This document shows positions 1 to 17,231 of a stretch of DNA of 64,000 bases, piece by piece. Under the pieces are notes generated by a model. The model did not search any database and had not been told where the DNA came from. It saw only the letters and a program-made list of their open reading frames with translations. The translations under genes were made by a program, and so were the position numbers. Location of the stretch: contig NZ_CP037452.1 in NCBI RefSeq assembly GCF_007754425.1, positions 5,927,164 to 5,991,163 on the forward strand, read 5' to 3'. The DNA is from Gimesia fumaroli. Its GTDB lineage: Bacteria > Planctomycetota > Planctomycetia > Planctomycetales > Planctomycetaceae. Every line of letters begins with the position of its first letter. Position 1 is the stretch's first letter.

Positions 1-1059
1 ATGTACGCCGATGGGAATCTGCCAGACGAAAAAGTTCAGGTCTCTCAAGCTGGTGCCGAATTAACCCATCCGCCTCAAAACAGTCTCTATCAATATCCAT
101 GGCAATTTGCCCTCTCACCCAGCCGGCTTCAGTCCCTCAATCCTCCCGCTCGACCGGACGCGCAGTTGCAATACCTGGAAGGATGGTCGTACTGGCTGGG
201 AACGATTCCCACGAATCGAACCGATATGTGGAGAATCTTTTATAACTACTATCTCAATTTAATCCGTGATAATGACCGCATGCTGCAATCGCTGCTGGCG
301 ACGTGTGATGAACTGGATCTCTGGAATAATACGATCTTCATCTTCACCGCCGATCATGGCGAATTAGGAGGTAGTCACGGCGGACTTCGGGGGAAAGGGC
401 CGTTTCCGTTTGAGCAACAGTCACACGTCCCGCTGATCATTGTTCATCCGGATCATCAGGGAGGACGCAGTTGTACTGCCGTTACCAGCCATATCGATCT
501 GTTACCCACGCTGGCCAGTTTAACAGGACAATCCTCTGACGCACAGAAAAAAGCAACTCAGAGTATGCCCGGTAAAGATATCTCGGTCTTGCTGTATCAA
601 CCGGAGTCAGCTCCCTCTGATGCGATTCGAAAAGGGGCCTTGTTTAATTATGTCGGCCTACAGACCATCGATGCCAATTACTTAAAAAAGATTGCCCCTC
701 TCCAGGCACATAGCAAGTTTGTACCACCCCTCAAAGAACTCCACCCCAATCTAAAAAAACGCGGCTTCCTGAATTTCGTATTTGATGGGCGCTATAAATA
801 CGCCCGGTATTACTCACCCAGCGAATTTAACATGCCAGAAACGCTCGAACAGATATATAAATACAACGACCTTGAACTGTTTGACCTTTACTGTGACCCC
901 CATGAAATGAACAACCTGGCGATGGAGCCGGAAGCAAACAGGGAACTGATCTTAAGATTAAACGGCTTAATGAACGAACTGATGATGCAAGAAGTCGGCG
1001 TCCATGACGGCCAGTTCTTGCCTGCAGCAGTCCGCCCCAAAGGGCCGATCAAGTTCTGA
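1..1059 (+). CDS. Sulfatase, C-terminal part (5' end outside window)
   Basis: This is the C-terminal portion of a type I sulfatase (alkaline phosphatase superfamily), which hydrolyses sulfate esters. The visible part carries the second metal-binding block FTADHGELGGSHG near residues 114-126 and the usual C-terminal half ending in a LFDLYCDPHEMNNLA stretch, the typical 'product to weight/terms' tail of these enzymes. The catalytic CxPxR block and the first Asp pair, which normally lie within the first 80 residues, are absent. The gene therefore almost certainly starts before base 1, and the ATG at base 1 is probably an internal Met. It converges with the beta-lactamase-like gene ending at 1101. 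Substrate cannot be told from sequence. Confidence 0.85.
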   Translation: MYADGNLPDEKVQVSQAGAELTHPPQNSLYQYPWQFALSPSRLQSLNPPARPDAQLQYLEGWSYWLGTIPTNRTDMWRIFYNYYLNLIRDNDRMLQSLLATCDELDLWNNTIFIFTADHGELGGSHGGLRGKGPFPFEQQSHVPLIIVHPDHQGGRSCTAVTSHIDLLPTLASLTGQSSDAQKKATQSMPGKDISVLLYQPESAPSDAIRKGALFNYVGLQTIDANYLKKIAPLQAHSKFVPPLKELHPNLKKRGFLNFVFDGRYKYARYYSPSEFNMPETLEQIYKYNDLELFDLYCDPHEMNNLAMEPEANRELILRLNGLMNELMMQEVGVHDGQFLPAAVRPKGPIKF

Positions 1060-1100: not shown

Positions 1101-2315
1101 CTATTTCTCTACAGGAACGATTCGCATGATCGTATCCATAATACGATCATGATGTTTCGTGCGATTCACTGTGTTACTCTGCATCAGCAGCACGCCGACC
1201 AGATCCCGATTGAAATCGATCCAGGCGACAGGACCCGAGTAACCAGGATGCGATAGAATTACCGAAGGACCATATTTATTGTTTTCTTTAAACTGAAACG
1301 CGAGTGCGTAGCGGTCGTTGGTTCCCGGCTGTGGCAGATAGAGTTGCTGCAAGATCCTTCGATCGATGAACGGTTTCCCATTGTATACACCACGGCTCAG
1401 GTGCATCTGCATCAAAGTACCGATATCGTCAAGGGTTGAATAGACACCGCCGCCAGCGGTTGAAAATCGTTTGTCCTGACGCTCTGCCACTTCCAGACCA
1501 AAGTTGTCCAGCTCAAAGACGCCTGCTTTGTTCGACTGATACAGAGGCGCCAGACGTTTCAATTCTGCTAGCGTTGGCTGAATGGTGGTATTCTTCAAAT
1601 TGAGTGGCTTGAAGACGCGTTCCTGCATCAGTTCGACAAATGTTTTTCCGGTGACCTTCTCCGCAACACAGGCAGAGAGATCGATGGGGCGACCATACAT
1701 CATCTTTGTCCCGGGTTCCGCAACCAGCCCCAGTTTCAGGCAGCCGTTCACGAAATCCTGATGCGTCTGGGGGAAAATATAGTCCTTCAATTCCGGACTA
1801 GTTTTCTCCAGCTGTTTGTTCACTTTGAGCCAGTTGTCATTCGGGATTCCCGACGTATGACTGAGCACGTGACGTATACGGACCGGTTGTTTCGGCTTGG
1901 AGCCATCTGGCAAGCGAATCTCAGCAAACTCGGGAAACGTTTTCGCGATCGGATCATCAAACGTTAATAGACCGTCATCCATCAGAGACGCCATCAGGGT
2001 CGCGGTAAACAGCTTGCCCGTGGAGGCCAGCCAGCAGAGCTGATCCACGGTAAACGGATCTTTGGTTTCAATGTTAACAACGCCGTGCGCTTCGCGCATG
2101 ATGACTTTGCCGCGATGAATCAGCAGCACGGAGATCCCCGGATAATATCCTTCGTCAATCACCGCCTGGATTTCTGAACGAATAGCATTACGGTCTGCTT
2201 TCGTGAGTGTAAAGGGGGGCCGCTCTTGCGGAATGACCTTATCTCCCGCTCTGGCAGACACCGTCACTGTGAGAAAAAGGATCAGGCAGAGCATAATTCG
2301 TGTCATCAGTTTCAT
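1101..2315 (-). CDS. Secreted serine beta-lactamase-like hydrolase (class C/PBP4* family)
   Basis: 404-residue serine hydrolase of the beta-lactamase/penicillin-binding-protein-like family, with an N-terminal signal peptide (about residues 1-23). The nucleophile motif SxxK is S98-T-G-K101. The YxN position reads Y207-G-R209, so the usual Asn is replaced. The third motif is H356-P-G358 in place of KTG/HSG. Relatives act as esterases, amidases or D-aminopeptidases rather than antibiotic-degrading enzymes, so no resistance role is inferred. The start codon overlaps the stop of the upstream sulfatase by 4 bp (ATGA, 2312-2315), which suggests translational coupling. It is probably the last gene of a three-gene sulfatase operon. 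Confidence 0.85.
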   Translation of the reverse strand: MKLMTRIMLCLILFLTVTVSARAGDKVIPQERPPFTLTKADRNAIRSEIQAVIDEGYYPGISVLLIHRGKVIMREAHGVVNIETKDPFTVDQLCWLASTGKLFTATLMASLMDDGLLTFDDPIAKTFPEFAEIRLPDGSKPKQPVRIRHVLSHTSGIPNDNWLKVNKQLEKTSPELKDYIFPQTHQDFVNGCLKLGLVAEPGTKMMYGRPIDLSACVAEKVTGKTFVELMQERVFKPLNLKNTTIQPTLAELKRLAPLYQSNKAGVFELDNFGLEVAERQDKRFSTAGGGVYSTLDDIGTLMQMHLSRGVYNGKPFIDRRILQQLYLPQPGTNDRYALAFQFKENNKYGPSVILSHPGYSGPVAWIDFNRDLVGVLLMQSNTVNRTKHHDRIMDTIMRIVPVEK

Positions 2316-4282
2316 GGTTGCGCCCCTTCAAAAGACCAGTTTTTTTCGCCGGCCCCTTTGCCGGTAAATTGGATTCTCTGAATTTCTAAGGGAGCCTCGT
2401 TTGCCGGCAGATAGAGCCGCACGATACCCGTTTTGCCTTCAACGGGGAGCTTCAGTTCAACATCCTGCCAGTCTTCCCTCCCTTTAAAGGTATACTCAAC
2501 GATCTGGCCCGTGCGTGGAAACGTCTCCTGATCTGCCGTCTTCCATTGTACTTTGCCTGCCCCACCCGATTTGCTACGCAAGCGAAGCTTTAACGTCAGT
2601 GGTCCTGTCAGTTTGACTTGCGCGGTTCCGAGAAATGGTGTGCGACCATCGGCTTCGATTCGAGCGGCTCCTTTGACCAACGACAACTTACACATTTTCG
2701 GAACCAGTCCGAACGAGGGGCCTCGCCTCGGTGTTTTCCGACGTGGATTAAAATCGGGATTGGGTTTAGGCGCGAGCGCGTTTGTCTCCCGGGTGAATTC
2801 CTCAATCAATGCATCCAGCTCTTTCACCTTGTCCGGCATTTTTGCAGCCAGGTTCGTCGATTCGCCGATGTCTTCTTTCAGATTATAAAGCTCATACAGG
2901 TCTGGATAACTGGGATGCGGTTCCCAGCGACGGATCAGTTTATAGTCGCCAGCTCGTACTGATGCAGCGGGAATCAGATGCGGAAACCAAGTGAAGTAGG
3001 CTTCGCGTTTCAACGTTCCCTGCTGTAACAACACTGGCAGAATTGAGACGCCATCCAGAATTTGCTCTTTAGGTTTGTCGACTTTCACGGCATCAAGGAT
3101 CGTTGGATACAAATCAATGGGGCCGACAATAGCATCAGAAATTGAACCAGGTTTGATGTGCTTCGGCCAGCGAACCATCAGTGGCACGCGTTGTCCTCCT
3201 TCATAGATTCGCCCTTTCCCTTCGCGCAGTGGCGCGTTATTCGTGGGTGCTTCCCCCTTGGCCCATTTACGATAACTTTTGATCGTCTCATACTTGGGAT
3301 GCTTTGGCGTGACATTCCTCAGCTTGGGATCGTCGGCACGCCAGCTATGCGTATTGCCGCCATTATCGGAATAGAAAATGAAAATGGTATTGTCGGTCAG
3401 ATTCAATTCGTCGAGTTTATCCAGCACACGTCCCAGACTTTCATCGACGTTCTGCAGCATCGACCCCATTACGGGATTACGCTGTTCGCCGCGCGGGTCT
3501 TTCTTCTTCGCATACCGAGCCGTGTACTCTGCTTTATGTTGCCACGGGCCATGTACCGAATACTGCCAGAGATTCAGATAGAACGGCTCTTTCTGGTGTT
3601 GTTCAATGAACCGCAGTGCTTCGTCTGTCAATCGATCAGTGATGTGCTCTCCTTCGGGGCCATCGGTAATATTGCCAACCTTATGCCTGCCGGTGGGTCG
3701 CCCCTCGGCATGCACTCCATATGGAGAAAAATAATTTGGCGGTCCCGGGTCGGGAGCACAGTGCCAGATCGTTTCGAACCCCTGTTTATCGGGCCAATGC
3801 TGTTGCATCGCACCCAGGTGCCATTTACCAAAGTGACCCGTGCGATAGCCGGCGTCTCGCAAGACTTCTGAGAGTGTGATCAGCTTCGGATCGAGATAAC
3901 GTTTACTTGCCGGGTAAATAAATTGCTTGTTAGGTGACCTCTTTGTTTCATAGTGGCGTCCCTCTGGTAAAGGCGGCTGATGGCCTGCGGCGCTGGTGAT
4001 CCCGTGACGAGACGAATATTGACCGCTCAAAATCGAAGCCCGCGTCGGCGAACAAAGCGGCACGGCATACGCGTTCGTAAACCGCATCGACTGCTTTGCC
4101 AGACGCTCCATCTGAGGAGTTTCGTAAAACTGAGATCCGTAAACCGAGCTGTCCATCCAGCCCATGTCGTCGACCAGAAACAGCACGACATTCGGTCTGG
4201 CAGGGGCATCAGCAAATACCGGCACCAGTACACAGAAAAACAGAACCAGACAGAACATCGATTTCCAAAGAGGCGATTTCAT
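2312..4282 (-). CDS. Secreted sulfatase with extra C-terminal domain
   Basis: 656-residue type I sulfatase with a signal peptide (about residues 1-25). The metal-binding Asp pair is D38-D39 and the active-site block is C77-S-P-T-R81; the Cys would be converted to formylglycine by a sulfatase-maturing enzyme not present in this window. After the catalytic region (ending near residue 505) there is a basic linker and a further region of about 130 residues, rich in alternating hydrophobic residues, that looks like a beta-sandwich carbohydrate-binding or adhesion domain (inference). It is the second gene of a run that starts with the sulfatase at 5831. The intergenic gap is 70 bp and the downstream hydrolase gene overlaps by 4 bp. 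Likely substrate is a sulfated polysaccharide, not determinable here. Confidence 0.93.
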   Translation of the reverse strand: MKSPLWKSMFCLVLFFCVLVPVFADAPARPNVVLFLVDDMGWMDSSVYGSQFYETPQMERLAKQSMRFTNAYAVPLCSPTRASILSGQYSSRHGITSAAGHQPPLPEGRHYETKRSPNKQFIYPASKRYLDPKLITLSEVLRDAGYRTGHFGKWHLGAMQQHWPDKQGFETIWHCAPDPGPPNYFSPYGVHAEGRPTGRHKVGNITDGPEGEHITDRLTDEALRFIEQHQKEPFYLNLWQYSVHGPWQHKAEYTARYAKKKDPRGEQRNPVMGSMLQNVDESLGRVLDKLDELNLTDNTIFIFYSDNGGNTHSWRADDPKLRNVTPKHPKYETIKSYRKWAKGEAPTNNAPLREGKGRIYEGGQRVPLMVRWPKHIKPGSISDAIVGPIDLYPTILDAVKVDKPKEQILDGVSILPVLLQQGTLKREAYFTWFPHLIPAASVRAGDYKLIRRWEPHPSYPDLYELYNLKEDIGESTNLAAKMPDKVKELDALIEEFTRETNALAPKPNPDFNPRRKTPRRGPSFGLVPKMCKLSLVKGAARIEADGRTPFLGTAQVKLTGPLTLKLRLRSKSGGAGKVQWKTADQETFPRTGQIVEYTFKGREDWQDVELKLPVEGKTGIVRLYLPANEAPLEIQRIQFTGKGAGEKNWSFEGAQP

Positions 4283-4352: not shown

Positions 4353-5831
4353 TTACAGATCTTTTTCTGTCGGTGGAAAACTCTTGCGATTGTCACTGTC
4401 AACCGGCTTCCCGTTACGTGTGTTCCACCATTCGGCGGCACGCTCAGGATCGTAGCTGGGATTAGGAATCGGCATTCGCGCGCTGACATCCTGCCGCCAT
4501 GCATTGAGCTTTTGTTTCAAATCGGCAACACGTCCCTTTTTCTCTGCTGCCAGATTTTTCGTTTCACCAATATCGTTGCTGATCTGGTACAGCTCGACAT
4601 CGCCAGTTCCATCGAGATACTCAATCAGCTTCCAGTCACGCTCGCGAATACTGCTCGCAGGTCGATCGTGGTGGTAATGGGGATAGTGCCAGTACAGCGC
4701 GCTTCGTTTGAGTTTCGTATCAGGGTCATTCAATAATGGAATCAGACTCATACCATCGATTGTCTGATTCTTCGGTAGTGTTCCTCCCGCGAGTTCGACA
4801 AACGTAGGATAAAAGTCGTACGTAATCGTCGGCTCAGCACAGACGGTTCCCGGCTTCACCAGGGGAGGGTATTTGATAATCAAAGGCACTCGCACGCCTC
4901 CTTCGTGCAGCGATCCTTTCTCTCCCTTGAGCGGGTCCTGAGTTGAGACATTATCATCGGCCTGTTCGCGATAATCATAGCGGCGATAGAGGCCTCCGTT
5001 GTCAGAGGTAAACACAACCATAGTATTGTCGGTCAATCCTTCAGCTTCGATGGCATCCACAATCCGGCCGACCATGTCATCGCAATGTTCAATCATCGCG
5101 GCATAAACGGGGTGCGGAAATTCACGTTTCAGACTGGCGGACTTCTGCCGGTACTTCTCAACTTTTTGCGACATCGCGCCCAGCGGAATATGAACTGCAA
5201 ATGGTGAGAGCATCAGAAAGAACGGCTTCTCTTTGTTGTCGCGAATGAAATCGATACTCAGATCGGCTTCGAAGTCGGTCCGATACTGGCCTGCTTTCGG
5301 CTTCAGATCCCGCCGTCCCTGCACGCGGTACTTGCCCGGCAGATGCGGTCCACCTATCACAGCCGAAAAATCGTATCCCTGCCGATCCGGTTGAAATTGT
5401 GCTCCTCTTCCCAAGTGCCATTTTCCGATGTATCCGGTTTCGTAACCGACGGTTTTCAAAGATTCCGCCACGGACACCGTATCCAGGGGAAGCGCTGTTG
5501 CTGGCCGGGGAGTAATCACTCGTTCAAACGGCCGCCAGTGTCCGGCAATAAAATCGGTAATCCCAATCCGCGCCTGATTCTGTCCCGACTGCAACGCACA
5601 CCGCGTGGGAGAGCAGACAGCACCTGCTGCATAAAAATCGGTAAACCGCATCCCTTCTTTAGCCAGTTGATCGATCCGCGGCGTGTCCACAAAGTCATTG
5701 CCATAACAGCCGACATCCTTCCAGCCCATATCGTCAATAAAGATCAATACAATATTGGGCCGCTCGGCAGCCGAAGTCTGATGCGAGGCACACAGGAGTG
5801 CCAGCATGGACAGAAAAATCATTCGCGCCAT
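4353..5831 (-). CDS. Secreted sulfatase
   Basis: 492-residue type I sulfatase with a cleavable signal peptide (residues 1-22, ending SAA). The first metal ligands are D33-D34, the active-site signature is C73-S-P-T-R77, and a second metal-binding block VFTSDNGG is visible mid-protein. Length and motif order fit arylsulfatase A-like enzymes of polysaccharide-degrading planctomycetes. It is the first gene of the minus-strand run of sulfatase, sulfatase and beta-lactamase-like hydrolase, so its promoter should lie in 5832-5984. I saw no recognisable promoter there. The substrate is unknown; sulfated algal glycans are a reasonable guess from known biology. Confidence 0.93.
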   Translation of the reverse strand: MARMIFLSMLALLCASHQTSAAERPNIVLIFIDDMGWKDVGCYGNDFVDTPRIDQLAKEGMRFTDFYAAGAVCSPTRCALQSGQNQARIGITDFIAGHWRPFERVITPRPATALPLDTVSVAESLKTVGYETGYIGKWHLGRGAQFQPDRQGYDFSAVIGGPHLPGKYRVQGRRDLKPKAGQYRTDFEADLSIDFIRDNKEKPFFLMLSPFAVHIPLGAMSQKVEKYRQKSASLKREFPHPVYAAMIEHCDDMVGRIVDAIEAEGLTDNTMVVFTSDNGGLYRRYDYREQADDNVSTQDPLKGEKGSLHEGGVRVPLIIKYPPLVKPGTVCAEPTITYDFYPTFVELAGGTLPKNQTIDGMSLIPLLNDPDTKLKRSALYWHYPHYHHDRPASSIRERDWKLIEYLDGTGDVELYQISNDIGETKNLAAEKKGRVADLKQKLNAWRQDVSARMPIPNPSYDPERAAEWWNTRNGKPVDSDNRKSFPPTEKDL

Positions 5832-6129: not shown

Positions 6130-7677
6130 TCAATCAGTAGTAACTGTGGCACCCTGTTTGCGGGCTTCTTGTAACAACCGGTCGATGTCGAATTGTGCCA
6201 GAGGGTGTTCCCTGGCTTGGAATGGTTGGATGTGAAACAACGTGACGATCGTTTCGTCAGTAAGACCGGGGCGATGAAGTGTGGTGATCCGCATCGCGGG
6301 ATACCAGCGATCGCCGGGTAGCTGTCGCAAATCAGTCAGCCTGTGTTCTTCAGTTCGGCACCAGCCGTCGGAATCCACGTTCCAATCGATCTGTTCCACT
6401 GCGATGTGATCGTGAGCAGGATCGAACCAACAGTCCTTCCGCCAGTTGACCCCCTCGAAACGGATTCCGATTAAACCAGCGTCGTTCTTGCCGGGAGTAT
6501 TGAGCCGAGTAGCAGTTCCCCCAATTGGCCAGAAACATTCCATTGGAATAATCGAATTGCCCCTACCGCGCGGCCCGATACGGATTCGGTTCTCGCGAGT
6601 ATTGTAATCGACTCGCCTTTGGCCGTCGTTCAAAAGAATGCTCCATGGCTGCGGTGTCTCGAACCAATCCCAGAGACGGACTTCGGAGGCATCGTATCGC
6701 AACCGACAGAGTTTGACGGGCCCCCAGTAGAACCCACTTTCGTCCCACTGTGGCAATCCGTCCTGGTAGAGCACTTGCATTTCCTCGCCCCAGATAAGAG
6801 CGCGGTAGCGAGTTGGAAACCGCCCAATCGCTTCGTCGATCTTCTTCAATGCTCGGGCGAGTTCGGGTTCGGATGCTGGCTGAACGTCCGAGATAATTCT
6901 CACAGGCAGATTCGCCGGCACCCCCAAGTCGGCCAGACTGCGGGGACCTGACTGGGGAAAGCTGTAGCGACCGTCCCGATATGAGCCATCCCCCAAACGC
7001 TGCCGTACTCGTACCGGGAGTTTCGTCTGCGGATCAACCCAAAGCTGCCGCTTGACAACGCGCTGCTTGAGGGAGTTCTGCCCGAAGAAATCAAACCGAA
7101 TTAAGCGCAGTCCCTCTACTGATTCCGTGCTCCGAGTCCAGGAGGGGCTGTCGCCGGATGGCAAATCGGCATTCGGCGTGGTCAGCCATTCCTGTGGGAG
7201 CCCGACAGCATCCAGCGGCGAACTCGGCGGTCCGAGGGCCGTCCGTGACAAATGGTCTTCCATGATAAAGGAGAGTTGAGGATTCCATTGCTGGTGGATG
7301 TTGCGCCGATGATCATGGTACGCGGCGTTCCCATTGCGGTCGCGGTGCCAACTCTGATGTTCTCCCAACAGAATCCAAAGTTCGTCCCCCGTATCGAATT
7401 CTACATGCAAGCAGTGCTCGCGGCCAATCGCCTCGCGGAGCTCCGCCAGAGTCAGTTCAGGCGCGCTCAAAGACAACAGCCACACCGCCAATAACACCAG
7501 TACCGAGACAGACAGTCCTAAACTTGATCTCATGATTCGGAGTCCTTTCCGATTGCTTGGAGTAAAAACCGGCGAATTGGGCAGGCGATCCATCACCTTG
7601 TCCACAAGGGAGTTTTCCGGAGGGAGCGGCTTCCCGAGACACTGCAGCAATTCCTCAAGTTCATGATGCGGATTCAT
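6130..7677 (-). CDS. One-helix membrane protein paired with ECF sigma factor (putative anti-sigma or sensor)
   Basis: 515-residue protein with a cytoplasmic N-terminal segment of about 50 residues, one transmembrane helix (about 51-72) and a large exported region of about 440 residues. The exported part is rich in Trp, Arg and Asp and reads like the outer-membrane-lipoprotein-sorting type of sensor domain often found in planctomycete proteins beside ECF sigma factors. That fold assignment is a guess. The start codon overlaps the end of the sigma gene by 4 bp (7674-7677), so the two are translated together. By position it is the likely negative regulator or signal sensor for that sigma factor. 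I see no zinc-binding HxxxCxxC anti-sigma motif, so a classical ZAS anti-sigma domain is not supported. Confidence 0.7.
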   Translation of the reverse strand: MNPHHELEELLQCLGKPLPPENSLVDKVMDRLPNSPVFTPSNRKGLRIMRSSLGLSVSVLVLLAVWLLSLSAPELTLAELREAIGREHCLHVEFDTGDELWILLGEHQSWHRDRNGNAAYHDHRRNIHQQWNPQLSFIMEDHLSRTALGPPSSPLDAVGLPQEWLTTPNADLPSGDSPSWTRSTESVEGLRLIRFDFFGQNSLKQRVVKRQLWVDPQTKLPVRVRQRLGDGSYRDGRYSFPQSGPRSLADLGVPANLPVRIISDVQPASEPELARALKKIDEAIGRFPTRYRALIWGEEMQVLYQDGLPQWDESGFYWGPVKLCRLRYDASEVRLWDWFETPQPWSILLNDGQRRVDYNTRENRIRIGPRGRGNSIIPMECFWPIGGTATRLNTPGKNDAGLIGIRFEGVNWRKDCWFDPAHDHIAVEQIDWNVDSDGWCRTEEHRLTDLRQLPGDRWYPAMRITTLHRPGLTDETIVTLFHIQPFQAREHPLAQFDIDRLLQEARKQGATVTTD

Positions 7678-8201
7678 AGTTCGACCCTCCTTAGCATTTT
7701 CTGCAACCGCTCCAGGGCACGCGAGAGTTGTTTGGTTACGGTACCAACAGGACGGCCGGTCAATTCGGCAATGACTCGAACAGAATGGCCGTCCACATAC
7801 CGGAGCAGCACGACTGCGCGTTCATGCTGGGGTAGTCTTGGGATTGCGGCCAACACGTCATGGAACTCTGCCTCGTCGCCCTCAACTTCGGGAGGCGTGG
7901 CGATTTCAGAAACCGCTTCCAGCGAACACGCATCGATTTGCCGCCGTCGCAGCACCAGGGCCGCCTGTCGCTCGGCAATCCGTGCCACCCACGGCCCGAA
8001 CAGTGCAGGACTACGAAGCGTCAGCAGATTTTCGTAGGCGGAGAGAAACACATCCTGAGTGACATCTTGTGCCAGGTGATAGTCCTTCACGACTGACCAA
8101 ACGGTCGTAAGGACAAGTCGCTCATACCGCCGCACAAGCTCGGCGAACGCAGCCCGCTCACCACGCAATACAGAAGTCACTAGTTCAGCAGTTGATGTCA
8201 A
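7674..8201 (-). CDS. ECF-family RNA polymerase sigma factor
   Basis: Sigma-70 family, extracytoplasmic-function type. Region 2 is visible as DYHLAQDVTQDVFLSAYENL and region 4 as the helix-turn-helix around LPQHERAVVLLRY through GTVTKQLSRALERL. I place the start at the TTG at 8201 (175 residues) because a GGAG ribosome-binding site lies at 8210-8213, eight bases upstream. The open frame continues to a TTG at 8312, but those extra 37 residues are basic and unlike sigma factors. It is cotranscribed and overlapping with the membrane protein gene downstream, the usual arrangement for a sigma/regulator pair. The target regulon is unknown. Confidence 0.9.
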   Translation of the reverse strand: MTSTAELVTSVLRGERAAFAELVRRYERLVLTTVWSVVKDYHLAQDVTQDVFLSAYENLLTLRSPALFGPWVARIAERQAALVLRRRQIDACSLEAVSEIATPPEVEGDEAEFHDVLAAIPRLPQHERAVVLLRYVDGHSVRVIAELTGRPVGTVTKQLSRALERLQKMLRRVEL

Positions 8202-8511
8202 GATCTTTGCTCCAACCTTCCTTGCGAGAGCCCATATCTTAATAGATGCGCGCCGTGACCGAAATGCGACAAGAAAAGCCTGCCATTTCGTAGAATTCTC
8301 CGGCCCGCTCAACCCGGAGCAAGGCGGTCGCGTCTGATTCCCTGCATCCTGACTTTCCGCCGCTCACTCTACCGGTTGAGCTTTCAAGGATCAGATTTCG
8401 CGGCAAGCGCAGGCTCTCAAACAGGTTATGCGTAAAAAATACTGTGAGAAAAGCGTAAACTCTACGGGACCCTACACTAAGAGAGACAACAGCGGCCTCT
8501 CCATCGTCTTA
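8202..8511. other. Upstream region of the sigma operon; 7-bp direct repeat
   Basis: About 310 bases without a gene if the sigma factor starts at 8201. It should hold the promoter of the sigma/membrane-protein operon. The only pattern I see is GCGTAAA twice (8430-8436 and 8453-8459), 23 bp apart on one strand, about two helical turns. It could be a regulatory site or chance. Confidence 0.3.
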
Positions 8512-9909
8512 TCACATCGGGGCAATCCGTTTGGAGCCAACATCAGTTGTTAAGACGACATGGCTATTAAAGCTCGCTAATATCAACTGCTGTTTGGCAG
8601 CCTGATGTTCCGGGTCGTCCCACAAGTTGTTGTGTTCCCAGGGGTCCGTTTGCAAATCGTAAAGCTCCCCCAAATCCTTGTCGTGATACAGAGATAATTT
8701 AAACCGGTCGTCGCGATACATGGTCGCAAAACTGCCCTCCCCGCCCGTGAAAAACGGATCGAGTGCGTCAAAGTATTCACAGCGAACACTATCGCGAATT
8801 TGTGCGCCTGTCTGTTCGCCAGTAAGCACCGGGAGCAGGCTCTGCCCCTGATGATAGTCTGGGATGGGCATCCCTGTTAAATCGAGTAATGTAGCAGAAA
8901 GATCGAGCAATTCCACAAGACCGGTCGCACACTGATTGGCGACAAAGTGTCCCGGCCAGGAAAAAATCAACGGTACCCGAACTAATCCTTCATAAAACCG
9001 ACATCCCTTTTGTACCAGCCCATGATCTCCCAACGTCTCACCATGGTCTGAAGTGAAAATGATGACCGTATTGTCTCTCTGTCCTGTTGATTCTAATGCA
9101 TTAAGTATGCGCGCAAACTGATCGTCAATTTGAGCAATCATTGCATAATAAAGTGCCTGAACTTTTTTCAGCTCACTGATTTCCGTTGACATCGTGACAG
9201 GCTGAAAATCAACCTGGGACAGCAGTTCTTGAGTCGCCTTATCAGACTCCTTAAAATGGGGACCGGGCATCGCGGCAGGGTCGAACAGATTCGCATATTT
9301 TTCAGGAGGAATAAACGGGGGATGCGGGTCATAAATATTGATGTTCAGCAACCAGGGTTGTTGGTGATCCTGTTCGATAAATTCGATTGCCCGATCAGAT
9401 GCCCACTTTGTTTGATGATATTCGGGGTCAACATGCTCTTGGCTATTTCGCATGTCCTCAAGGCTTTTACCTTGCGCGCGTACCCAGTCGGCATAATCGT
9501 GTGTTCCTTCAGGCCAATCATCGCGCGGAGCATGGCTATGCTGCCAGACTGTGAATCCATCATCCAGCCGAGGTTCCGCGCGATGGCCGGCACTCACTAA
9601 ATGAAATTTTCCAATCAACCCACACTGGTAACCACTCTCTGCGATTAACTTGCTGATCAGTGGTGGCCAATCAGGAAAGGTGTCGTTGCCATTTCTGGTA
9701 TTGTGTAAGCGCGAAGGATACAGCCCGCTCATAAAACTCGCCCTGCTGGGGGTACAGATTGGACTTTGGCAATACGCATGCGTAAAGGCCACCCCCTCTT
9801 CCACGAGCGAATCAACCACAGGCGTTTTCACATACGCGTTCCCCAGCGCACCAATGGTGTCAAACCGTTGCTGGTCGGTGCAATACCATAAAATATTAGG
9901 ACGGGTCAT
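8512..9909 (-). CDS. Cytoplasmic sulfatase (choline-sulfatase-like type)
   Basis: 465-residue type I sulfatase that begins directly with the catalytic fold (NILWYCTDQQ at residues 5-14) and has no signal peptide, unlike the other complete sulfatases here, so it probably acts in the cytoplasm. The active-site block is C52-T-P-S-R56. The second metal block is FTSDHGETLGDHG. An AAGG ribosome-binding site precedes the ATG by about eight bases. It lies 89 bp downstream of, and on the same strand as, the fused Tct transporter gene. Cytosolic sulfatases of this type act on small imported sulfate esters or related phosphonates, so transporter and enzyme may form an uptake-and-desulfation unit (inference). 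Confidence 0.92.
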   Translation of the reverse strand: MTRPNILWYCTDQQRFDTIGALGNAYVKTPVVDSLVEEGVAFTHAYCQSPICTPSRASFMSGLYPSRLHNTRNGNDTFPDWPPLISKLIAESGYQCGLIGKFHLVSAGHRAEPRLDDGFTVWQHSHAPRDDWPEGTHDYADWVRAQGKSLEDMRNSQEHVDPEYHQTKWASDRAIEFIEQDHQQPWLLNINIYDPHPPFIPPEKYANLFDPAAMPGPHFKESDKATQELLSQVDFQPVTMSTEISELKKVQALYYAMIAQIDDQFARILNALESTGQRDNTVIIFTSDHGETLGDHGLVQKGCRFYEGLVRVPLIFSWPGHFVANQCATGLVELLDLSATLLDLTGMPIPDYHQGQSLLPVLTGEQTGAQIRDSVRCEYFDALDPFFTGGEGSFATMYRDDRFKLSLYHDKDLGELYDLQTDPWEHNNLWDDPEHQAAKQQLILASFNSHVVLTTDVGSKRIAPM

Positions 9910-9998: not shown

Positions 9999-12917
9999 TT
10001 ACGGCAGTACAACAGAGAATACTGATGTGAACACAATTTCTGTACCCAACCCAGTCAACAAAGAGAGTTCGATGAGAATTAACAAATAGTTCGGTTGCCA
10101 TTTTGCCATAGCTCCCCCAGTGACTGCAACCATGAATGCCGTTGCCAGCCAGTAACTGAGCCAGCCCTGCTCTAACACCAGCACATAACCGCAAAGCAGT
10201 ACAAAACAAATAACGGCCAGCCAGATGCGCGGCTTGCAGCTTGAGAATCTATTTGTTGATGGTGTTTGACTGAGAAGTTTTTCCTGTACGACGATAATAC
10301 TCATCAATAAGAGAATTACCATGATCATATAGAAAGGAAAATCAGGAAGCTGAACTGTTGAGCCAGGAACCAGTTCGCTGAATTTCTTCTCACTTTGGCT
10401 GATGTTCTCATTTAATTTCTCGCCCCGATAAAACACCGGTGCAATAGACAACTCCCGCAAACTATTCCGCACAGAATCAGATTGCATCGCCTGTTCCAGT
10501 GTATCTGCCAGTAGATCAATTCGCTCTTGCGGAGTGCCTTTGGGTGCCCACCAGTAAAACGAGTTACCAACCACGGCATCGAGATGCTGTTCACGAGCCG
10601 TCGAAACGTCTGGCAGGGCGGATTGCCTCTTGTCAGACAATACTGCCAAAGCGCGAATCTGCCCGTCTCCCTGGTAGGACAGAAATTCTGCCAGCGAAAA
10701 AATGGTGGCATCGATATGACCACCAATGAGCATCGTATATCGCTTTTGCCCATCTCCCGATTGCACATAATTAAAATATTCTCCACCAGAGGCCTGTTCT
10801 ATCTTTTTGGCAGCGAAATGGGCGACTGCCCCGAAATTGGTTCCAAATTGAACTTTACCAGGATGGTTCTCGGCATAATGCAACAGCTCAGCCAGATTTT
10901 TGTACCAGGCATTTTGATGCGTGGCTACCACCAGGTTAATCTCTCCCGTTTGGGCAATCGGATCAAAAGCCTCCGGACCGTAGTTCACTTTGCCGGAGTA
11001 TTTCGATGTAATAATCCCCTCATGGTTACAGAGTATTTTGTAACCATCAGGCCGCGCCTGTTTGACATTTCGGCTCCCAATCGTACTACTGCCCCCCGGC
11101 TGATTAATGATGACGACAGGTTGTTTCAGCAGCTTGTTCTCGGTGATGGACTTTTGAATAATTCTGACAAACAGGTCCGTTCCGCCTCCTGCAGAAAACG
11201 GCACGACAACCTGAACGGGGCGTTGTGGAAATTGCGTCAGCTCATGTTGATTCGCGAAGAAACCAGAAAACTGAAAGACGATCATGCCAATAATGGCCAT
11301 CACCGCAACGGTATGCCAAACTGGTAAACCGTATCGACTCCAAAATGAGTGAGACTCATCTTCTGCGTTTTCACTCAATATTTCTGAGGAATTAAGAGCA
11401 GTCGTCTTTTCGGCATCATCATGCAAGGTCTCTTTTTTGCTGTCCGATTGTTTGCGGAACCGACGCACAAGCGGCACCATCAGCAATAATGCAGAGATGG
11501 CGACAAAGAGTAAAGAAATTGGCCGAGTGATGATCGGTAACCAGCTACCATGCGATGACATTAGCCCGGCGCACAAATTTTCTTCAGCAATCGGACCTAA
11601 GACAAAACCAATGACAAAGGGGGCCAATGGGATTCGGTTTCGCTCTAATACCAGTCCCAGCAGCCCGAAACCGAGCATCACCCAGACATCGAACATTCGG
11701 TTCGACAACGCAAATGCTCCGGCAATGCAAAAGGTGAAAATAATGGGCAACAAAAAAGGACGTGGAAACCGTACCAGTTTTGCCAGAAAACCGACTGATG
11801 CGATCATCACCGCAAACATGACCAGATTTGCCAGAAAATAGGTTCCCATAATGGTATGCACGAGTTCGGGATGATCGCTGAATAACCGCGGACCTGGTTG
11901 CAAACCATGCAGAACTAATGCGCCGAGCAAAATGGCATCGATCACACTGCCGGGGATGCCCATCGCTACGAGTGGAATTAAAGCCCCCCCTACAGTCGCA
12001 TTATTGGCTGCTTCTGAAGCAATAATTCCCTCCGCAGAACCGGAACCGAATTTCTGCGGAGTTTTGGAACTGTTTTTGGCGGCTGAATAAGCGGCTATCG
12101 AGCCGATGTTTGCACCAATGCCGGGAAGTATTCCAATAAACGTTCCAATAAAGGAAGACCGCAACATATTAACCCATTGATTTTTCCAATCTCTGAAAGT
12201 AAGCCACAACCCACTGTGTGTTACCGAGACGCGCGGAACTTTTTGGTCAATATTCGCAATATCGCGCAGCACCTGATTGATCGCAAACATTCCAATTAAC
12301 ACGGGCAACAACTTGAAACCACCATTGAGAGGAGTGAACCCTAATGTGAGTCGCACTTCGCCTGTGGCTGCGGAAATCCCCGGCATGGCTGCCAAAATTC
12401 CCAATGTTCCCGAAAAGAGTGACCGCGTCAGCGATGCACCATCAATGGTCGCGATTAATACCAGGGCCATTAATACCAGCGAGAAATATTCAAAAGGTCC
12501 CAATTGTGTTGACCAGCGGGCAATTGGGGCAGACAAGGTGACTAAAAACACACAGGAAATTAAACCACCCACCAGGGAAGCATATATTCCCAGCCCCAGC
12601 GCACGACCGGGCTGACCTTGTTGCGTCATGGGGTAACCATCAAGCGTTGTCATTACAGAGGCGGGCGTGCCGGGCATTCGCAAGAGTGTGCCGGTTATCA
12701 AGCCACCGCTGATTGATCCCACATACATACTCACTAACAATGTCATCGCCAGTTGAGGATCGAGGGTAAACGTCAACGGCAACGTAAGTGCAATCAACAT
12801 GGCGCCGGTTAAACCGGGAATCGCACCCACGAAGATACCAAGCGATGTTCCCACAAAAATCAGCGTCAGGCTGAGAGGTGTAGATAATTGAACAACTGTA
12901 GTTTGAATCGCATCCAT
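9999..12917 (-). CDS. Single-chain tripartite tricarboxylate transporter: TctA-TctC-TctB fusion
   Basis: 972-residue protein containing all three parts of a tripartite tricarboxylate transporter (TTT), which are normally separate proteins. Residues 1 to about 490 form the large multi-helix permease TctA, with the family motif GIFVGAIPGLTG near residue 28. A charged linker and one further helix (about 525-550) follow. Residues about 560-845 match the periplasmic substrate-binding TctC/Bug family, including VVVPFSAGGGTD and PGGSSTIG motifs. Residues about 860-972 are hydrophobic with about four helices, fitting the small subunit TctB. TctC proteins bind carboxylates such as citrate or tricarballylate. 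Here the binding domain would be tethered outside the membrane between two helices. The sulfatase gene follows 89 bp downstream. Confidence 0.88.
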   Translation of the reverse strand: MDAIQTTVVQLSTPLSLTLIFVGTSLGIFVGAIPGLTGAMLIALTLPLTFTLDPQLAMTLLVSMYVGSISGGLITGTLLRMPGTPASVMTTLDGYPMTQQGQPGRALGLGIYASLVGGLISCVFLVTLSAPIARWSTQLGPFEYFSLVLMALVLIATIDGASLTRSLFSGTLGILAAMPGISAATGEVRLTLGFTPLNGGFKLLPVLIGMFAINQVLRDIANIDQKVPRVSVTHSGLWLTFRDWKNQWVNMLRSSFIGTFIGILPGIGANIGSIAAYSAAKNSSKTPQKFGSGSAEGIIASEAANNATVGGALIPLVAMGIPGSVIDAILLGALVLHGLQPGPRLFSDHPELVHTIMGTYFLANLVMFAVMIASVGFLAKLVRFPRPFLLPIIFTFCIAGAFALSNRMFDVWVMLGFGLLGLVLERNRIPLAPFVIGFVLGPIAEENLCAGLMSSHGSWLPIITRPISLLFVAISALLLMVPLVRRFRKQSDSKKETLHDDAEKTTALNSSEILSENAEDESHSFWSRYGLPVWHTVAVMAIIGMIVFQFSGFFANQHELTQFPQRPVQVVVPFSAGGGTDLFVRIIQKSITENKLLKQPVVIINQPGGSSTIGSRNVKQARPDGYKILCNHEGIITSKYSGKVNYGPEAFDPIAQTGEINLVVATHQNAWYKNLAELLHYAENHPGKVQFGTNFGAVAHFAAKKIEQASGGEYFNYVQSGDGQKRYTMLIGGHIDATIFSLAEFLSYQGDGQIRALAVLSDKRQSALPDVSTAREQHLDAVVGNSFYWWAPKGTPQERIDLLADTLEQAMQSDSVRNSLRELSIAPVFYRGEKLNENISQSEKKFSELVPGSTVQLPDFPFYMIMVILLLMSIIVVQEKLLSQTPSTNRFSSCKPRIWLAVICFVLLCGYVLVLEQGWLSYWLATAFMVAVTGGAMAKWQPNYLLILIELSLLTGLGTEIVFTSVFSVVLP

Positions 12918-13482: not shown

Positions 13483-13926
13483 TCACTCAGCTTCGGCGTC
13501 CGGCTGTTCGGGGGCCACCCCTTTAACCTTTTCCAGGGTGACTTTATTGCCTTGCTCATTGTACTCGATGAGGTTCATAAAGGCCCCCATCAGCATAATT
13601 CCCCGGCCACAGGGACGTTCGAGATTTTCCAGCAGGGTAGGATCCGGGACATCGGTCCGATCGAACCCTTCGCCTTCATCCTGGATTTCTATGCGAACCC
13701 GTTCGTCGCTCAACCAGCAGTTGATTTCGACGCTTTTGTCAGGCGACATTCGATTACCATGCTTAATGGCATTCACCAGCGCCTCTTCTAAAGCGAGGCG
13801 CACAGCAAAGACATCGCGATCTGGATACTCACGTACCTCAAGAGCCTCGACAATTCTGGCTTGAACAGCCTGACCTTCCGAGGTATCGCTGGGAATCGTT
13901 ACTTCAAAATGTTCGTCCGATGACAT
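13483..13926 (-). CDS. RsbW-like anti-sigma factor / ATP-binding serine kinase
   Basis: About 147-residue protein of the HATPase_c_2 family, which includes the anti-sigma serine kinases RsbW and SpoIIAB. Visible motifs are the N box LALEEALVNAIKHGN, the G1 box DEGEGFDR and the G2 region GRGIMLMGAF. Such kinases phosphorylate a STAS-domain antagonist and sequester a sigma factor or other partner. The STAS gene lies 192 bp upstream on the same strand. I chose the ATG at 13926; a GTG at 13941 would add five residues, and neither has a clear ribosome-binding site. No SigB-type sigma factor lies beside it, so the final target is unknown. Confidence 0.88.
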   Translation of the reverse strand: MSSDEHFEVTIPSDTSEGQAVQARIVEALEVREYPDRDVFAVRLALEEALVNAIKHGNRMSPDKSVEINCWLSDERVRIEIQDEGEGFDRTDVPDPTLLENLERPCGRGIMLMGAFMNLIEYNEQGNKVTLEKVKGVAPEQPDAEAE

Positions 13927-14118
13927 GTATTTGGCCAGCACACGATTTCTGGTGTTTATCCAGTTACTAAATTAGAGACAGGTCAAGCAGTTTCAGGAAA
14001 ACAGTTTCAAAAATGAACCGCGGTATTCCTTGTTTCGCTATCTCACAACATTTTGTTCTCCAAAAGTACTCTGCAAATGACCGGGAACGCGTTCGAAACA
14101 GCAATTCCCGAGCCAAAG

Positions 14119-14475
14119 CTAAAACCCTTCGAGAGCAGCTTCCTGTGTTTCGGCAATATCAAAAAGTTGATTCAGTCTTGTAATGGCGAATACTTCATAG
14201 ATATCAGGACGAATTGAACAAAGTTTCAATTTCCCCTTTGCCTTTTTCACTTTTTTATCCAGTGTAATTAACTTTCCGAGTGCAGCACTGGAAAGATATT
14301 CGACATTGGAAAAGTCGAGAATAATCTTCTTGCGACCATCTTCATCAACAAGCCCAAATAACTGAGTCCCGATGATCTGGATATTCCCCTCATCAAGGAT
14401 CTTCTTGTCAATAAACTTTGCAATGGTGACATCATTGACTTCCTCGATGTCAACACGACGGTGACCAGCTGCCAT
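14119..14475 (-). CDS. STAS-domain anti-sigma factor antagonist (RsbV-like)
   Basis: 118-residue single STAS domain. The core IILDFSNVEYLSSAALGKL (residues 51-69) matches the phosphorylation loop of SpoIIAA/RsbV; the phospho-acceptor should be Ser62 or Ser63. When dephosphorylated, such proteins bind the cognate kinase and release its partner. It is upstream of and co-directional with the RsbW-like gene, so the two probably form a partner-switching pair. The ATG at 14475 has an AGAGGG stretch upstream. The N-terminus is slightly longer and more charged than in RsbV. Confidence 0.9.
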   Translation of the reverse strand: MAAGHRRVDIEEVNDVTIAKFIDKKILDEGNIQIIGTQLFGLVDEDGRKKIILDFSNVEYLSSAALGKLITLDKKVKKAKGKLKLCSIRPDIYEVFAITRLNQLFDIAETQEAALEGF

Positions 14476-15230: not shown

Positions 15231-16442
15231 ATGCAACGTCGATTCCGCTTCACCCTCATCATTCTATCCGTGAGCTTATGTTCGTTTTCCCTCCTTCAGG
15301 CAGGAATTGAAATCGAACTGACAGACGGACGCATCGTCACTGCTGACCGCATTGAGTGGGGTGCCTCGTCAACTTTGATCCTCGAAACTGCTCGCCAGAA
15401 CCGAACGGTTCAATCAACACATTCTCTGGACCAAATCAAACGGCTGTCGATTGATGGCTCGCACTATGATCAGGAAACAATTCAACTGGCGTCGGCAAAC
15501 CGGCACCTGGTTCAGCCAGCCACATTCACATCAATTCAAAATGATCCCAGAGAGAGAGCGACTTCCCTCAAGCACCTGACAGAGAAAGCACCCTCAGGCG
15601 ATTTCCATTGCCAATTACCCTGGCCCTGTCCTTCCAATCGCAGTCGTGGCACCATTATTGGCATTCACGATGATCCCCTGAGTGCTTATGAACCGTTGTT
15701 GAATCAGGTTTATCCTGAAGGCGTTCCGACTTTAGAACGTGGGTTTGCTCTGGAACTGATGCGTTCGCAGGCGGCTCAACGGGTTTTGGGAACGCCCCCG
15801 TCTCCGCAAGATTTTCCGCCGCCCCCGGCAGTAAATCCGATCCTGGGAAAACTGACACAGATTGGCGTTCAGGCGACGCCGCTGAATACACGCGGCAAAG
15901 CAGACTGGAACGCACTGGCGATTCGCGTGCAGGGCTTTGACCGAATGGGCAATCCCGCTCGGATTTCCGGAAACGTTAACATCACCCTCTACGGCCAGCG
16001 TCAATTGCTGTTACATGTCTGGGATCAACAGTTCCTGGCAAAACCAATCGAGACGATTTCCCTCGCACAATGGACGCGTAATTGTTCGACCACGCCAAGC
16101 ACACAAACTCCGCGTGTCGGAAACGCGTTTGGTGCAGGTCAACCGACTGATCAGACCTGGATTGTGTTCTTACCTTCGCCGATCCCCGAACAGAACCCAA
16201 ATGTTTACGCGCTGGGTGAAGTCCAGGTCTCTCTGGTCTCTCCCGGAATTGGCACGTTTGAAGCTTCGACTCCTGCTGTACCTTTGAAGCAGGTTTCACT
16301 CAACCGTGATCTCTCATTGGCGAATGACGGCTCGCGCTTCTTTCCGTCCGAAACGACCTCGTCGGGTGTCTACCATATGAAGCGTTTGAACTATAATGCC
16401 GCCTCAAGGCCAAGCAGCCGCACACTCTCCGTCCAACCTTAA
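15231..16442 (+). CDS. Secreted protein of unknown function
   Basis: 403 residues from the ATG at 15231. The frame is open from 15153, but the signal peptide starts at MQRRFRF, which fixes the start. The signal peptide spans about residues 1-24. It is followed by a short beta-rich segment, IELTDGRIVTADRIEWG, resembling the LSM-like 'DGRxLxGxI' pattern, then a Pro-rich middle and a beta-rich C-terminal half. I recognise no catalytic motif. Planctomycetes have many secreted proteins of this kind. The 3' end overlaps the convergent amidinotransferase-fold gene by 39 bp (16404-16442). Confidence 0.75.
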   Translation: MQRRFRFTLIILSVSLCSFSLLQAGIEIELTDGRIVTADRIEWGASSTLILETARQNRTVQSTHSLDQIKRLSIDGSHYDQETIQLASANRHLVQPATFTSIQNDPRERATSLKHLTEKAPSGDFHCQLPWPCPSNRSRGTIIGIHDDPLSAYEPLLNQVYPEGVPTLERGFALELMRSQAAQRVLGTPPSPQDFPPPPAVNPILGKLTQIGVQATPLNTRGKADWNALAIRVQGFDRMGNPARISGNVNITLYGQRQLLLHVWDQQFLAKPIETISLAQWTRNCSTTPSTQTPRVGNAFGAGQPTDQTWIVFLPSPIPEQNPNVYALGEVQVSLVSPGIGTFEASTPAVPLKQVSLNRDLSLANDGSRFFPSETTSSGVYHMKRLNYNAASRPSSRTLSVQP

Positions 16443-17231
16443 GGTCAAACATTTCGCAGAGCCGCCTGCTTTGATGAATTCATCCAAGGGCGTGCTGTGT
16501 GCCTCATAACCACGTTCCTTGAGAGCTTTTTCCAGTTGCGGGCAGCCGGTATTCAAGGCCACCGATTTCCCGATCACGACTGCATTACAGGCAAACCGCT
16601 GGGCTTCCTGATCCACCACGGGAATCAGATGCGGAATATGTTCTTTCAAAGCCTGTTGTGCATAGCTGTCAAAAGCGGGCGGATAATATATGGCTTCCGT
16701 CTCACTCAGCGGGCAGAAGCAGGTATCGAGATGATAGTAGAATTCATCGACCAGCTGTAACGGAATCACGCGGCAGTTTATTTCACCAGCCACCCATTGC
16801 AGCGCCTTCACATCGCTGCGAATCAGATAACCGGCAAAGAGGGTGTCTCCACAAAAAAGCGCATCGCCGGCCCCTTCAAAGAAATAATCGTCGGGCATCT
16901 CTATCGTTTCAAAGCCGGCCTCTTGAAACCAGTCCCGATCGACGGCAGTTTCTCCCTGTCGCGCTTCATGGCGAAATTGGGACAAAAATACCTTGTCTTT
17001 CCAGACAAGGCCGGCGTTCGCCGTAAAGACGAGATCGGGTAGTCCCTTCACGGGCGTCATTAATTTTATCTGGGCTTTTAACGTCTGTAGAAGCTGATGC
17101 AAAGCCTCCCACTGCTGCCGGGCCACGTCGAGATTACTTTGCTGACTGCGGCTCATCCAGGGATTGATTTCGTATTCAATCCCATAAAAATCGGGCGGAC
17201 ACATTAAGATGGTGGGGGTGTTGAATTTCAA
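16404..17231 (-). CDS. Amidinotransferase-fold arginine/dimethylarginine hydrolase
   Basis: 275-residue member of the guanidino-group-modifying (amidinotransferase/arginine deiminase) superfamily. Family marks are CPPDFYGIEYEINPWM near the N-terminus, DLVFTANAG (substrate pocket), FEGAGDAL (guanidinium-binding acid), the catalytic His at 167 in HLDTCF, and the nucleophilic Cys at 261 in GGSAKCLTLRL. Length and N-terminus resemble the dimethylargininase group and the arginine dihydrolase domain of cyanobacterial ArgZ/AgrE. Products could therefore be citrulline or ornithine plus ammonia. The exact substrate is not settled by sequence. It is a lone gene with a 39-bp convergent overlap with the neighbour. 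Confidence 0.8.
   Translation of the reverse strand: MKFNTPTILMCPPDFYGIEYEINPWMSRSQQSNLDVARQQWEALHQLLQTLKAQIKLMTPVKGLPDLVFTANAGLVWKDKVFLSQFRHEARQGETAVDRDWFQEAGFETIEMPDDYFFEGAGDALFCGDTLFAGYLIRSDVKALQWVAGEINCRVIPLQLVDEFYYHLDTCFCPLSETEAIYYPPAFDSYAQQALKEHIPHLIPVVDQEAQRFACNAVVIGKSVALNTGCPQLEKALKERGYEAHSTPLDEFIKAGGSAKCLTLRLDGECAAAWP

Follow-up and report, generated by a model that had tools for sequence, protein, structure and literature searches.

We found that the three subunits of a tripartite tricarboxylate transporter (TTT) are encoded by a single gene in the 64,000-nucleotide stretch of Gimesia fumaroli DNA analysed here (the window). The gene is an open reading frame of 972 residues on the minus strand (9999-12917) that begins with ATG and runs without an internal stop through TctA, a linker, a helix, TctC and TctB to the stop codon at 9999-10001. 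By its domain content the predicted protein is a TTT transporter; what is unusual about it is that it is one chain, that TctC is captive within it and that TctB is without helix 1.

Conservation and spread of the fused frame

The full-length frame, with no internal stop, is present in 12 of the 17 genomes of the window's genus, its own included; nine of the twelve copies come from single-contig assemblies, and the eleven copies other than the window's are 86-98% identical to its protein. The earlier note had claimed one frame interrupted by neither stop nor frameshift, and the genus upholds this; these genomes do not appear to encode TctA, TctB and a mobile TctC as separate subunits. A thirteenth genus genome (G006) has a piece cut at a contig end and the other four have none. 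Scanning samples of the phylum (392 genomes) and of the order (170 genomes) at thresholds of E 1e-90 and 1e-120, we found that all nine full-length single-frame matches in the former and all twelve in the latter were members of the genus, and none of the genomes sampled outside the genus had one; G019 has a frame of 990 residues at this place, but it contains a TGA. An 84,980-species collection was also searched with six short peptide patterns, which remote single chains could escape. Of the 253 relatives that it gave, the best 80 were retained, and these included one single chain, L003 (with a TctA identical to the TctA of genome G004), and L004, a contig-end piece of 411 residues.

Comparison of the 12 single-chain sequences gave dN/dS values of 0.083 for TctA, 0.54 for the linker (residues 485-523), 0.20 for the tether helix (524-556), 0.18 for TctC and 0.29 for TctB. 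Values below 1 right through the junction indicate that the junction is translated, the linker being loosely and the tether clearly constrained.

Domain layout of the chain

TctA, the permease, occupies residues 1-484 (11466-12917; this and all following parts of the gene on the minus strand), and in a scan of the whole protein Pfam TctA spans residues 17-436, covering profile positions 1-423 of 423 at E 8.4e-141. It is followed by a charged and variable linker (residues about 485-530; 11328-11465; alignment A2), which its charge counts would place in the cytoplasm, and by the tether helix (residues about 531-555; 11253-11327), recognized by hydropathy. The TctC/Bug binding domain comprises residues about 561-857 (10347-11237), with the whole-protein scan placing Pfam TctC at residues 594-849 (E 2e-34) and 11 PDB sequences, BugD and the terephthalate-binding protein among them, matching it at E 3e-35 to 1e-20. 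The best-covering matches run from about 561-565 to 849-857, and some PDB matches end earlier, at 824-841. G577, G578 and D581 of this domain are invariant across the 61 rows of alignment A3. The TctB domain takes up the remainder (residues about 859-972; 10002-10343). The earlier note had the domains, their sequence in the chain and their limits right, and the continuous frame bore out that the binding domain is joined to the membrane domains. A scan of the fused protein against NCBIfam returned nothing near any cut-off.

The TctB end begins at the second helix

The whole-protein Pfam scan did not list TctB at any E up to 10. When only the last 133 or 128 residues were scanned, they matched TctB at 31.8 and 30.3 bits, respectively (curated cut-off 29.1), from profile position 31 or 32 to 137 of 137; of 61 C-terminal segments scanned in the same way (12 from single chains, 49 from TctC-TctB relatives), 60 matched TctB at E ≤ 0.01. 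An hhalign comparison of the fused-end profile with a profile of 11 free-standing TctB proteins, from which the 80-residue frame L062 was left out, gave E 5.7e-21 from profile column 55 on, and the reversed-profile control for this comparison gave E 0.014. The TctB-like end that the earlier note had placed at 860-972 is thus matched to its family both above the Pfam cut-off and by hhalign, indicating that this small membrane subunit is part of the chain; it is not a whole TctB, as it begins at the second helix.

The match of the main clade to free TctB starts at this helix, and the hydropathy segment that precedes it in 11 of 11 free TctB proteins has no counterpart in the fused end, which accordingly lacks the N-terminal helix of a complete TctB. 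Helices are numbered here by hydropathy count: the fused TctB has segments at 859-877, 898-916 and 945-963 and a weaker one at 920-938 (1.39 against a threshold of 1.4), and the free proteins have five segments in nine cases and four in two. The part of a TTT review at hand gives TctB four helices (PMC5812351).

Origin of the fusion

The relatives of the chain are of three kinds: in Pseudomonadota and others, TctC, TctB and TctA are encoded by separate genes; in Planctomycetota, Verrucomicrobiota and Lentisphaerota, TctA is accompanied by a fused TctC-TctB; and in one genus all three form a single chain. The three genes described in the earlier note as normal for TTT systems are not the rule in this lineage, whose PVC relatives use TctA and TctC-TctB. 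Since TctC and TctB are already joined in these relatives, tethering was not invented by this gene: the permanently tethered binding protein of that note is indeed joined in the chain, and its tethering is older than the chain.

The 122 TctA rows comprise 54 with the order CB-A, seven with A-CB, 14 single chains, 31 in which TctC is unfused (before TctA in 25 and after it in six) and 16 that lack a TctC within reach. At each of the seven A-CB loci, namely L018 and six Pirellulaceae-like ones, the two genes overlap by 4 nt, through ATGA at six loci and GTGA at one. In both careful trees, of TctA (58 rows; 100/96) and of TctC (35 rows; 100/99), the A-CB clade is the sister group of the single chain. 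Forcing all fused TctC-TctB rows together lowered lnL by 109 (AU p 1.3e-5), in a test on 35 of the 96 rows of an earlier TctC tree in which long branches were present and the group was defined by the fusion trait with that tree already inspected. As judged from these phylogenies, the TctC-TctB fusion has at least two origins; two changes are counted on the tree, a count that alone cannot separate gain from loss.

A second, distant planctomycete TTT clade also has TctC-TctB fusions. One member is in the window's own genome, where a lipoprotein-type TctC-TctB followed by TctA forms a second TTT system (G000:C1:1008911-1011810; L002, L132), and no sulfatase match was found near it in the 13 kb viewed. 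L101, a neighbour of this clade, has a separate TctB of 171 residues with the first helix. In the second clade, too, the fused ends resemble TctB (E 1.1e-10); the match starts in the loop before helix 2, 16 profile columns earlier than that of the main clade, and helix 1 is absent. Two fusion events seem to have arrived at nearly the same TctC-TctB joint, in the loop that precedes TctB helix 2, each time with helix 1 missing. The trees support a gene history in which separate C, B and A genes would have led to a TctC-TctB fusion with loss of TctB helix 1, then to TctA and TctC-TctB in the order A-CB, overlapping by 4 nt, and finally to one gene in one genus.

Tether helix and topology

The tether, whose hydropathy peaks at 537-555, aligns onto the signal peptides and lipoboxes of the two-gene TctC-TctB relatives. 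Upstream of TctC, a lipobox pattern matches 23 of the 46 TctC-TctB rows of the main clade and 5 of the 11 of the second clade; the pattern undercounts, and by eye the numbers are 26 and 11. The rows include near-duplicates. Relatives that have no lipobox carry a Sec-like or uncleaved signal before TctC. The pattern was found in none of the 13 single-chain rows (12 genomes) and in none of the seven A-CB rows, and L085 has a cysteine inside the tether helix that lies outside the pattern. Because the relatives' signals stand at the same place and the lipobox is missing in the single chain and the A-CB clade, the tether is best taken for a one-time export signal of TctC that has become a permanent membrane helix. 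The earlier note had rightly seen a helix at about 525-550, between TctA and TctC; what that note called extra occupies the place of the TctC signal peptide or lipobox of the two-gene relatives.

We also considered the tether as TctB helix 1 and rejected it, given that it has no match to the profile (1 column, E 0.23, in a weak test of 39 columns) and that lipobox-bearing relatives would lose that stretch on processing. It may substitute for TctB helix 1 in space, not in sequence.

Lysine and arginine together number 5-10 per sequence in the linker (484-531), 2-5 in 878-897, 0-1 in 556-564 and none in 916-921. Hydropathy and these basic residues predict a chain that runs from the cytoplasm out, through TctC, and then in, out, in and out, with the caveat that acidic residues in the linker are as many as basic ones (7-11 aspartate plus glutamate per sequence) and that one TctB segment is just under the threshold. 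If this topology holds, the helix limits and the best-covering TctC matches would leave about ten residues at most on either side of TctC to hold it; a longer second linker is conceivable, as some TctC matches in the PDB end as early as 824.

The adjacent sulfatase

A sulfatase gene lies 89 nt downstream of the fused gene on the same strand (8512-9909, minus), and it is the best substrate hint at the locus, one that the earlier note had left unmentioned. Its protein matches Pfam Sulfatase (E 1e-46) and SGSH_C (E 5.7e-24) and starts with MTRPNILW, leaving no room for a signal peptide. It has both the sulfatase domain and the C-x-P-x-R active-site motif (CTPSR), from which we take the partner gene to encode a formylglycine (class S1) sulfatase.

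Within the genus, the sulfatase (E ≤ 1e-100) occurs in exactly those 12 of 17 genomes that have the full-length fusion. Across the order, 40 of the 42 genomes that have the transporter clade also have the sulfatase (E ≤ 1e-120), versus 8 of the 128 that lack the clade (Fisher 2e-28), and by genus the counts are 13 of 14 versus 5 of 44 (3e-8), in tests that ignore shared ancestry. Three of the 48 sulfatase genomes (G020, G540 and G543) have a match that is only 45-47% identical, and leaving them out gives 39 of 42 versus 6 of 128. The transporter and the sulfatase lie within 2.5 kb of each other in 23 of the 39 pairs located; the other 16 include 15 on different contigs and one, in G337, with 3.7 Mb between the two genes on one contig. 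Counting rows with at least 1.4 kb downstream, we found a sulfatase (E < 1e-100) within 1.6 kb in 13 of 13 single-chain, 19 of 38 CB-A, none of seven A-CB and 5 of 11 unassigned rows of the PVC clade, and in 3 of 41 rows outside it. A more distant sulfatase (E < 1e-30) is present in five of the seven A-CB rows, the closest kin. Neighbour and co-occurrence counts make it unlikely that the adjacency is due to chance in this clade, yet the sulfatase is not a universal neighbour.

The link to the transporter could still be accidental, or the enzyme could act on a different compound, the transported substrate being without sulfate. Sulfatases abound in the genome (150 match segments), and the closest solved relatives of the partner are mixed in function, comprising sulfatases, choline sulfatase and phosphonate monoester hydrolase, the last of which also belong to the alkaline-phosphatase superfamily. 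Moreover, about half of the two-gene relatives are without a close sulfatase neighbour, and some of these adjoin other enzymes, by eye threonine-dehydratase-like and aldo-keto-reductase-like. Against this, the next match to the partner in the genome is at E 7e-62, indicating that the partner is one distinct ortholog, and this ortholog tracks the transporter across the order; we consider an accidental link or another target of the enzyme unlikely, though this is the strongest of the alternatives. A sulfated carboxylate is our best guess at the substrate, for this member only, and the substrate class may vary between relatives.

A subclade of the relatives (L022, L025, L027, L028 and L029) has an uncleaved-anchor-like TctC-TctB, and L025, L027 and L029 share two downstream frames, judged by eye to encode a dehydratase and an aldo-keto reductase, in the sulfatase's stead. 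The window itself is a sulfatase-rich stretch, with three further sulfatase-like frames at 1-1059 (plus), 2312-4282 (minus) and 4353-5831 (minus) that match the partner at E 3.7e-13, 1.7e-27 and 5.1e-24, respectively.

Other genes in the window

At 6130-8312 (minus strand), a sigma-70-type factor (Pfam Sigma70_r2 and r4) has a 4-nt overlap with a frame of 515 residues without a Pfam match, and neither was present in the five genus neighbourhoods (19-20 kb) viewed. Adjacent HATPase_c_2 and STAS proteins are encoded at 13483-13941 and 14119-14475 (minus), resembling a partner-switching pair; they are also near the fusion in one of the five genus neighbourhoods (L136). A frame at 16404-17231 (minus) has a DDAH-type Pfam match (E 1.4e-17).

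Proposed mechanism and its alternatives

We think it probable that the protein is a one-chain symporter that holds TctC at both ends and imports a sulfated carboxylate. TctA would end in the cytoplasm and the charged linker would lead into the outward-crossing helix; TctC would lie in the periplasm, and the chain would return through the remaining TctB helices, pinning TctC at both ends directly above the permease. There TctC would open, close and hand its substrate to TctA without diffusing away, in transport driven by an ion gradient, as is assumed for TTT systems. The imported carboxylate would carry a sulfate ester, which the cytoplasmic sulfatase from the gene just downstream would cleave. 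Given the continuous chain, TctC probably cannot leave, and we infer that it works while docked. It is also possible, at somewhat less than an even chance, that TctC loads, closes and delivers while docked and that the twice-made joint reflects TTT systems in general, in which docked TctC would have its C-terminus above the periplasmic end of helix 2 of TctB, and TctB could do without helix 1.

The full chain might be made and signal peptidase might then cut the tether, so that TctA and TctC-TctB act as two proteins. The position of the tether, at the site of export signals that in half of the main-clade rows bear a lipobox, speaks for such a cut; yet the pattern is missing from every single-chain row, the cysteine of L085 does not conform to it, no constant small-x-small site was seen by eye (SGFFANQ, SGFFTNQ, TGFFSNK) and TctC would remain fused to TctB regardless, all of which makes cleavage improbable. 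Still less credible is an internal start in the linker or tether that gives a separate TctC-TctB beside the full chain. All 12 sequences have ATG, GTG or TTG within residues 485-560, the ATG at residue 545 being common to the 12, but a Shine-Dalgarno-like stretch precedes none of these codons in the 12 sequences, and initiation at 545 would truncate the helix. Translation in planctomycetes may begin without such a motif. An assembly or sequencing error that fused separate genes has nothing for it beyond the general possibility and is rejected with near certainty, since independent assemblies of the genus share the frame, nine of them as single contigs, and dN/dS stays below 1 across the junction.

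A TTT transporter in one chain with captive TctC, the reading that we favour, would fix the subunit ratio at 1:1:1 and may ease purification and structure determination as compared with three subunits. Sequence searches of the PDB found no structure of TctA or TctB, and no characterized TctB exists according to a 2026 paper (PMC13390454). The repeated joint would provide a distance restraint for the TTT complex and a first hint at the needed part of TctB. The sulfatase partner suggests sulfated organic acids as a substrate class for some TTT systems. Planctomycetes are known for their many sulfatases.

Comparison with known systems

The single chain shares all three domain families with the three-gene TTT systems (TctCBA, TC 2.A.80), and its TctC is related to the solved Bug proteins; it differs from them in being one polypeptide, in that TctC is not free and in that TctB is without its first helix. 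Rare TctAB fusions are on record in the TTT review, whose available text mentions none with TctC (PMC5812351). Among the matches listed from the open-licence literature, in the excerpts that these gave, we found no description of a TctA-TctC-TctB fusion, a TctC-TctB fusion or a TTT-sulfatase pair. The two-gene PVC systems (TctA plus TctC-TctB) are direct relatives with the same TctC-TctB joint, with identities of 52-67% for TctA and of 29-41% over the aligned part for TctC-TctB rows (alignments A2, A3 and A6 were used, and from the mixed alignment A1 the identities of TctA rows only). In these systems TctA is separate and TctC-TctB starts with a lipoprotein, Sec-like or anchor signal, whereas in the single chain the tether is linked to TctA.

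Fused subunits are also found in TRAP transporters, in which, according to the part of the review at hand, the small membrane subunit is joined to the binding protein in rare P-Q fusions and a helix is added in fused QM; TRAP and TTT systems have no sequence similarity, and an all-in-one P-Q-M chain is not mentioned in that part (PMC5812351). Rare Q-P fusions are likewise noted in the accessible text of a second source (PMC8276074). TAXI-GltS fusions, as described in the section available, join a binding protein to a secondary transporter; they belong to other protein families, and in Bordetella the binding protein is a lipoprotein beside GltS, the two being fused only in other bacteria (PMC12344293).

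ABC transporters with fused binding domains, such as OpuA, have the binding domain permanently attached to the translocator, as in the chain described here. GlnPQ is a further ABC transporter with a fused binding domain, and ABC transporters are ATP-driven and have a different permease family.
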